From NCBI GenBank assembly GCA_958296235.1, contig OY282457.1, forward strand, positions 558,001 to 622,000: DNA of 64,000 nucleotides, written 5' to 3'. A program made the translations under genes and the position numbers. The first letter of the stretch is position 1; each line of letters starts with the position of its first letter. The stretch comes from an uncultured Candidatus Binatia bacterium. GTDB taxonomy: Bacteria; Desulfobacterota; Binatia; Bin18. Under the pieces are notes generated by a model that was not told the origin of the DNA, made no database searches, and worked only from the letters and a program-made list of their open reading frames with translations. Of this stretch, positions 20,185 to 21,727 are shown one piece after another.

Positions 20185-20448
20185 GTGTCTCAGTTTCACA
20201 TTTCCCTCCCTCGCTGCCGGCTCAGCGCCCCCCTCCCTGACAGACGTGTGATGCGCATTGTGTCGCCGGCCCCCCGACGGTCCGTCCGCCCCCTCACCCG
20301 GCCCTTCGACAGGCTCAGGGCCACCCTCTCCCTCCAGGGGAGAGGGAAAAACAGGAGCCCCTCTCCCGCTGGGAGAGGGGTTGGGGTGAGGGGGAAAAGG
20401 CAACCCGAGGCACTATCCGTCTCCGGGTTGTGGGTCAGTTGAAAGTTT
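20185..20448. repeat. Hairpin-rich intergenic repeat, copy A
   Basis: This is a 264-bp non-coding element in a 378-base gap. It begins GTGTCTCAGTTTCAC and carries a core CGGCCCTTCGACAGGCTCAGG, followed by a hairpin CCCTCTCC/GGAGAGGG (20324-20346) and a 10-bp hairpin CCCCTCTCCC/GGGAGAGGGG (20358-20380). A similar core and hairpins recur at 27191, 56331 and 60519 in both orientations. The element is bracketed by imperfect direct repeats (CGTCTCCGGGT-GTG) at 20173 and 20420. No protein is encoded. Confidence 0.8.
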
Positions 20449-20484
20449 TTCTTGTACGGCTCACAAAAAAGGGGCATAGCCTAA
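20435..20484 (+). repeat. Imperfect direct repeat, copy 1
   Basis: TCAGTTGAAAGTTTTTCTTGT and the following bases through GGCATAGCCTA resemble 21674-21722 (roughly 70 percent identity). The two copies bracket the desaturase-rhodanese gene. This one covers the last codon and stop. Confidence 0.5.
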
Positions 20485-21602
20485 TCTTTATCCGATACGG
20501 GCAGCCCTGCTCCTGTCCATCCGAGCATACCGCCAGACAGAACCAGGAGAGAAGAGAAGCCGTTTTGCCCTAACAACTCCGCCGCTCTGACTGAGCGACG
20601 TTCCGTCTTTCACACCAGGACGACCGGTCGGGAGCGACCGAGAGCCAACTCGTTCAGGCGTTTGTCCAAATCGGAAACCGGCAGCAAGTGGGCCCCTGCG
20701 ATATGACCAAGCTCGCCTGTAAATTCGCCCAGGTCTCGCACGTCGAGTACATAGGGTGGATTTTCTTCTGCGAGCATTTCGCGCAGCTGCAGGGGAGAGA
20801 CTTCTTTCCACGTTTTTTCCAGGGGAGGACTGGTCTGAAAGGGGAGGAGTAATACCTGCCCGAGGGGAAGCGAAGCTCGATACCATGACAGTCCAATCTC
20901 AAGTCCCAGTTGTCCTAACGCCGGCTCAGCCCGATAGGTTCTGCACAGCCGATCCCACCAGGGGACAGAAAAGCCGAAGTTTGCATGGGTTTCCACCGCT
21001 CGTGTGGAGTGATGAATCCGGTGCATGTCTGGCGTCACCAGGAACCAGCGCAGACCCTGGTCAAGCCTTTCAGGCAGACTGACATTACTGTGGTTAAAAA
21101 CAGAAGTGGCGTTCAGGAGGATTTCAAAGGCGACGGCGGCCCAAGCAGGCGCTCCCAGCGCAATAATGACAACCGCTTTGTAGGCGAGAGAGAGGAATAT
21201 CTCAATAGGATGAAAACGGAGGCCAGTCGTGGCATCGACTCCAAGGTCAGCATGATGGACCTGATGCACCCGCCACAGCAGGGGGAAGCTATGGAAGAGA
21301 CGGTGTTGGACATAGAGGGCGAAGTCGAGGACAAGGATGCTGGCAGGGACGGCGAACCAGAAAGGCGCTGACACCCAATGCAGCAGGCCAATCTGTTGTT
21401 CTGCCGCAAAAGTGGCGGCCATATATGCCAAGCCACCGACTACCGCCCAGACCAAAACCATATTGAGCAGCGTCAGCCCCAAGTTCGTGGGCCAGCGTTC
21501 TGCTCTTCTTTGGGAAAGAATGCGGCGCGGGGAGAGGCATTCCCACGTGACCATTATGGAAAAGACCGCGAAAAAGGGCCAGAAGCGAATCCACATTTCC
21601 AT
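20481..21602 (-). CDS. Sterol desaturase/fatty acid hydroxylase fused to a rhodanese domain; in-frame UGA at the catalytic Cys (candidate selenoprotein)
   Basis: The frame encodes 330 residues up to a TGA at 20610-20612 and then 42 more to a TAG at 20481-20483. Residues 1-250 are a di-iron hydroxylase with HRLFH, HQVHH and HRIHH boxes between membrane segments. Residues 270-372 are a rhodanese domain (VLDVRDLGEF, LGHIAGAHLLP). The TGA falls exactly where rhodaneses have the active-site Cys: PVVLV, TGA, then KTERRSVRAAELLG and VLSGGMLGW in frame. Conservation on both sides and a SECIS-like hairpin right after the TGA suggest selenocysteine. A nonsense mutation or sequencing error is the alternative. 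No selenocysteine machinery genes are in the window. Confidence 0.8.
20580..20600 (-). promoter_or_regulatory. SECIS-like hairpin immediately downstream of the in-frame UGA
   Basis: Read on the minus strand, nine bases after the UGA there is CGUCGCUC, loop AGUCA, GAGCGGCG. This is an 8-bp stem with a single G-U wobble. The apical loop starts 17 bases after the UGA, and its second base is G. Both features fit the rules known for bacterial SECIS elements (loop 16-37 bases from UGA, G among the first two loop bases). It lies inside the coding frame, as bacterial SECIS elements do. Confidence 0.65.
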
Positions 21603-21673
21603 AGCGAATACTCCTCGAAAAACGGTCGGATTCGCCCTATCTTTTCAGCCACGCGTTGACTTCGTATCCGGTT

Positions 21674-21722
21674 ATGCAGTTGAGAGTTTTCTTGTGAAAG
21701 CCATAAATTCATGGCATAGCCT
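21674..21722 (+). repeat. Imperfect direct repeat, copy 2
   Basis: GCAGTTGAGAGTTTTCTTGTG through GGCATAGCCTA matches the segment at 20435-20484. It ends six bases before the antitoxin start and probably includes that gene's promoter or operator. Confidence 0.5.
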
Positions 21723-21727
21723 ATGTC

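Follow-up and report, generated by a model that had tools for sequence, protein, structure and literature searches.

A predicted selenoprotein of Candidatus Binatia that joins an FA_hydroxylase-family membrane domain to a rhodanese with UGA at its catalytic site

The window (the 64,000-nucleotide stretch of contig OY282457.1 that was analysed) contains, on its minus strand, a gene that encodes a homolog of the sterol desaturases and di-iron hydroxylases fused to a rhodanese. The frame is 1,122 nt long and contains a single in-frame TGA. Re-reading of the sequence gave exactly the frame (20481-21602), the TGA (20610-20612), its context (VVLV-UGA-KTERRS) and the continuation of 42 residues to a TAG that had been reported in the initial annotation. 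The features of the locus are listed below.

20481..21602, minus strand: desaturase/hydroxylase-rhodanese fusion gene encoding 373 aa with a predicted Sec331; ATG at 21600-21602 and TAG at 20481-20483; full length kept in five same-genus genomes
21611..21616, minus strand: putative Shine-Dalgarno-like GAGGAG, 8 nt upstream of the ATG, from sequence
20937..21341, minus strand: FA_hydroxylase (PF04116) domain, aa 88-222, with three di-iron histidine boxes, from the Pfam score and an alignment
20511..20795, minus strand: rhodanese (PF00581) domain, aa 270-364, from the Pfam score and from sequence and fold matches
20610..20612, minus strand: UGA, predicted selenocysteine 331, located in the active-site loop of the rhodanese, which connects strand 327-330 to helix 334-346, from sequence, relatives and an AlphaFold model
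20580..20600, minus strand: candidate bSECIS hairpin, 8-bp stem CGUCGCUC:GAGCGGCG and 5-nt loop AGUCA, from folding, comparison and the model of PMC13188914

A reading with the standard code stops the gene at the UGA, and the rhodanese would thus be missing from the annotation. Similar segments (GGCTATGCC...CAAGAAAA..TCAACTG...ACC.GGA) lie on both flanks of the fusion gene (window positions 21660-21723 and 20420-20480) and are perhaps copies of a small repeat; one segment alone passed a pattern search.

Using Pfam profiles, we detected both domains in the read-through protein, PF04116 with 98 bits (cut-off 31) and PF00581 with 49.5 bits (gathering cut-off 22.2), and the rhodanese match was gone from the product that ends at the TGA. 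The three histidine boxes of the desaturase half, HxxxH (residues 100 and 104), HxxHH (113, 116 and 117) and HxxHH (194, 197 and 198), comprise eight histidines that are invariant in an alignment of 32 sequences. The word "sterol" is only a family label as far as the substrate is concerned. The desaturase half was also compared with the ornithine lipid hydroxylase OlsE (NF052566), an identity that was rejected because the score was 69.5 bits against a curated cut-off of 475. The AlphaFold model of the fusion protein has a mean pLDDT of 85 and places residue 331 in the usual active-site loop of rhodaneses, and homologs have the catalytic cysteine at the position of the TGA, as originally proposed. 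Among the fold-search matches listed, which cover the rhodanese half only, the top match was the rhodanese of BpPRF (PDB 5ve3; 38% identity over 104 columns).

We predict from these sequence data that the UGA is read as selenocysteine and that the fusion gene encodes a real selenoprotein, with a probability of roughly 0.9-0.95. The fusion gene was identified in five of the six same-genus genomes searched (G001 and G003-G006, Candidatus Binatia MAGs; 85-87% identity) and was not found in the sixth (G002, 89% complete). All five homologs have TGA at the identical codon followed by an open frame, and no frameshift or other nonsense codon was detected in their rhodanese parts. In this same-genus comparison the mean NG86 dN/dS was 0.17 for the desaturase, 0.26 for the linker and the rhodanese before the UGA and 0.12 after the UGA, and the low value after the UGA indicates that the tail is under purifying selection as a protein. 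Chance is excluded because the TGA and the downstream frame are kept in five further genomes.

The TGA might instead be an ordinary stop, as the end of the open reading frame under translation table 11 would have it, in which case the gene encodes a desaturase of 330 aa and the rhodanese tail is the remnant of a decaying pseudogene. We consider this highly improbable, since the TGA and a clean frame to the end occur in six genomes with a dN/dS of 0.12 past the TGA, the rhodanese similarity crosses the TGA, the hairpin is kept, the genome has a complete selenocysteine machinery, and a stop at this codon would cut within the rhodanese fold. At the UGA position, other homologs have the catalytic-site cysteine, namely L048 (ICKTDKRS), L138, L158 and a gene on a Roseibium plasmid. 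The idea that the cysteine forms are confined to genomes without selenocysteine machinery was dropped, as selA was detected in all 15 genomes tested and no such split exists.

The source genome is a single contig of 4.62 Mb. The initial annotation had made its reading depend on selA, selB, selC and selD, and all four are present in this genome (selA 595 bits, selB 386 bits, selD 310 bits, and selC in two copies). The second tRNA-Sec gene (G000:C1:2957301-2957377, corresponding to L010:12297-12377; 52.9 bits) lies 1 kb from the first and has a long variable arm that is short by about 14 nt; each of seven relatives searched has a single tRNA-Sec match at E <= 1e-8. Formate dehydrogenase alpha (two matches, one at G000:C1:2832657-2834708) and selD (256428-257342) are encoded without UGA in the source genome, so that the selenocysteine machinery is not maintained here by these common clients. 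The selD gene lies within an open frame of 775 aa and is perhaps part of a fusion itself.

The hairpin CGUCGCUC-AGUCA-GAGCGGCG starts 9 nt past the UGA, and its loop occupies nt 18-22 with G as the second base. Published rules for bacterial SECIS elements require a loop of 3-9 nt, a stem of 4-16 bp, G in one of the first two loop positions, a spacing of 16-37 nt and a minimum free energy of at most -7.5 kcal/mol (PMC13188914). The hairpin of the fusion gene agrees with all of them (a 5-nt loop with G as its second base, an 8-bp stem and a spacing of 17 nt), and folding of positions 20570-20615 gave -16.3 kcal/mol (z -2.8), which bears out the SECIS-type element described in the initial annotation. 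When synonymous codons were resampled, an equally stable hairpin appeared in 3% and a rule-compatible one in 14% of cases, and the hairpin taken alone is only modestly improbable. A search with Rfam returned no match to a SECIS model.

Comparison within the class adds to this picture. A SECIS-type hairpin follows each of the 15 TGA-rhodaneses identified in the class; 14 of the hairpins reach -7.5 kcal/mol or lower with a continuous stem and one (L042) has a single mismatch at pair 6; a hairpin is present in two of about 18 cysteine rhodaneses of the same class. The loop starts at nt 18 in 13 of the 15 and at nt 19 and 22 in the other two, and with a 5-bp stem the hairpin of L159 matches the common register as well. 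The inner 5-bp stem CGCUC:GAGCG is paired in every one of the 15, and pair 6 varies between U-G, G-C and C-G. The loop has 5 nt in the desaturase fusions (protein RSVRAA or RSGRAA) and 3 nt in five VTT fusions (RSASAA or RSSSAA); GAGCG, the conserved 3' arm, therefore stands in a different codon phase in the two groups and encodes different residues. By sequence comparison, the RNA as well as the protein is conserved at the hairpin.

The UGA could also be decoded as tryptophan or cysteine, or it could act as a selenium sensor, with the fusion made when selenium is available and a product ending inside the rhodanese made when it is not. Such selenium dependence holds in principle for any gene with a UGA for selenocysteine, and the desaturase domain is intact upstream of the UGA. 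The SECIS-type hairpin and the tRNA-Sec genes make selenocysteine the simplest reading of the codon, tryptophan is unfit for a rhodanese active site, and the truncated product of a sensor would end in the middle of a domain. We therefore regard these possibilities as very unlikely and retain selenocysteine as the predicted residue.

Other Binatia encode the same desaturase followed directly by a gene for a VTT (PF09335)-rhodanese protein with TGA at the same site, accompanied by a gene for an ArsR-type HTH-rhodanese protein. A rhodanese-domain search of a broad phylum sample with a strict cut-off had found only the gene itself; it was the search of the class that yielded the TGA-rhodaneses. 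The VTT-rhodaneses with TGA and a SECIS-type hairpin (L159 and L160-L166, from genomes G017, G342, G327, G353, G336, G341, G010 and G008) adjoin the desaturase and the ArsR-rhodanese gene in several Binatia. In G011, a solo TGA-rhodanese without VTT lies directly after the desaturase, and cysteine versions of the VTT-rhodanese occur within the class (L138 and L158) and on the Roseibium plasmid, there beside a desaturase. In the rhodanese tree the fusions form a clade with the VTT-rhodaneses[UGA] of G008 and G010 and the solo protein of G011 (94/74 and 90/85; moderate support), and in the desaturase tree the fusion clade adjoins operon desaturases of the same family (94/91). Judged from these sequence relationships, the fusion probably derived from an operon (ArsR-rhodanese; desaturase; VTT-rhodanese[Sec]) by loss of VTT and joining of the genes with retention of the UGA and the SECIS element. 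The ArsR-rhodanese gene is not adjacent to the fusion gene in the window's genus. An alphaproteobacterial MAG (L048) encodes a desaturase-rhodanese fusion with cysteine. In the desaturase tree, branches with good support set its desaturase apart from those of the Binatia fusions, so that at least two independent fusion events took place.

The genomic context of desaturase homologs in phyla other than that of the host includes metal and arsenosugar genes. In the Alphaproteobacteria examined, the genes for the homologs and for an ArsR-rhodanese regulator with the sequence YCRGP(Y/W)C are often transcribed divergently. Several desaturase contexts, some of them on plasmids, have copper ATPase, multicopper oxidase, cation efflux, DUF411 or mercury-resistance genes nearby. 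At about 40 loci, mostly from Methylococcaceae (including L050 and L062), the desaturase has neighbors of the TIGR04283 and TIGR04282 glycosyltransferase types (NCBI names for arsenosugar biosynthesis), an assignment made by scanning one representative of each type, and both types also lie near the desaturase on an Acinetobacter plasmid. This suggests that the desaturase homolog has a role in the arsenosugar pathway at these loci. An arsenosugar/ArsS cluster (TIGR04167, TIGR04282 and TIGR04283) was not found adjacent to the fusion gene and is adjacent only in other phyla; in the source genome, TIGR04283 and TIGR04167 lie about 0.57 Mb and about 1.4 Mb from it. The desaturase contexts in Pseudoalteromonas and Sinorhizobium contain no metal or arsenosugar genes, and the association is thus not universal.

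Our tentative proposal, which draws on these neighborhoods and on the domain content, is that the fusion protein may be a membrane-lipid hydroxylase coupled to a selenocysteine sulfurtransferase that serves under thiophilic-metal, metalloid or reactive-sulfur stress. Under the selenocysteine reading, which we regard as highly probable, SelB would bind the hairpin at 20580-20600 and bring Sec-tRNA to the UGA, and the product would be a polytopic di-iron membrane enzyme of the FA_hydroxylase family with a C-terminal rhodanese and the catalytic Sec331. In the tentatively proposed function, the rhodanese would carry sulfane sulfur (or selenium) as a perselenide-type intermediate, or would reduce persulfides or oxidised thiols at the membrane, while the hydroxylase half would modify a membrane lipid. 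The pair would take part in the response to stress by these metals, metalloids or sulfur species, with related loci controlled by the ArsR-rhodanese protein. A more specific version, which we consider speculative and unlikely, is that the selenocysteine rhodanese might feed sulfur, selenium or electrons directly to the di-iron enzyme in a lipid modification of an undescribed kind that depends on chalcogens or metalloids, with the related operons under ArsR-rhodanese control.

The two chemistries may instead be unrelated, with the fusion merely setting a general sulfurtransferase or redox domain at the membrane. Rhodaneses do have many fusion partners, for example persulfide dioxygenase, MoeB/MoeZ and VTT (PMC10127716). 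We judge this somewhat doubtful, because the desaturase-rhodanese fusion occurred twice independently and genes for rhodanese proteins are conserved neighbors of the desaturase in different phyla, both of which speak for a functional link; they would connect the "sterol desaturase" family to sulfur or selenium transfer and to the ArsR-rhodanese regulator, which provides a functional lead. If the selenocysteine reading is correct, the fusion adds a putative membrane lipid-modifying architecture to the selenoproteins and, together with the VTT-fused and solo forms, a wider set of selenocysteine rhodaneses in Binatia. It may also serve as an example of the stepwise fusion of a selenoprotein from an operon with the SECIS element kept intact.

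Rhodanese selenoproteins are already known as a kind, as the initial annotation had noted: five forms with the motifs UxxS, UxxG, CxU, UxxG and UxxxxU have been catalogued, of which form 3 corresponds to NF041203 and form 5 to TsoB, NF045694 (PMC13188914, 2026). None of the catalogues searched contains the desaturase-fused architecture, and the assertion that the fusion is undescribed held in the open-access papers and family libraries that we searched, where none was found. In the open-access literature we likewise found no paper that combines selenocysteine with sterol desaturase or with DedA-rhodanese, or selenoprotein with Binatota, and no paper on the Binatia selenoproteome.

The fusion protein shares a rhodanese domain, a predicted selenocysteine and a bacterial SECIS element with the catalogued forms (PMC13188914), but its motif is UxxE (UxxE/G/T/D/A/Q in the relatives), a distinction drawn from the catalogue descriptions and models. 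It scores 31.8 bits with the model of form 3 (NF041203), below the curated cut-off of 115, and has no match to the TsoB model; the catalogue lists forms 1-5 without any FA_hydroxylase or VTT partner. With the ornithine lipid hydroxylase OlsE it has in common the FA_hydroxylase domain (PF04116) and the three histidine boxes. BpPRF (persulfide dioxygenase-rhodanese, PDB 5ve3), one of the solved rhodaneses closest in sequence, also joins an oxygenase to a rhodanese; however, its oxygenase is a persulfide dioxygenase and not an FA_hydroxylase, and it has cysteine where the fusion has the predicted selenocysteine. VTT/DedA-rhodanese fusions (PF09335 and PF00581) are already known (PMC10127716) and have the architecture of the related Binatia operon gene, which occurs in selenocysteine and cysteine versions, whereas the window's genus lacks the VTT part and has the rhodanese fused to the desaturase instead.
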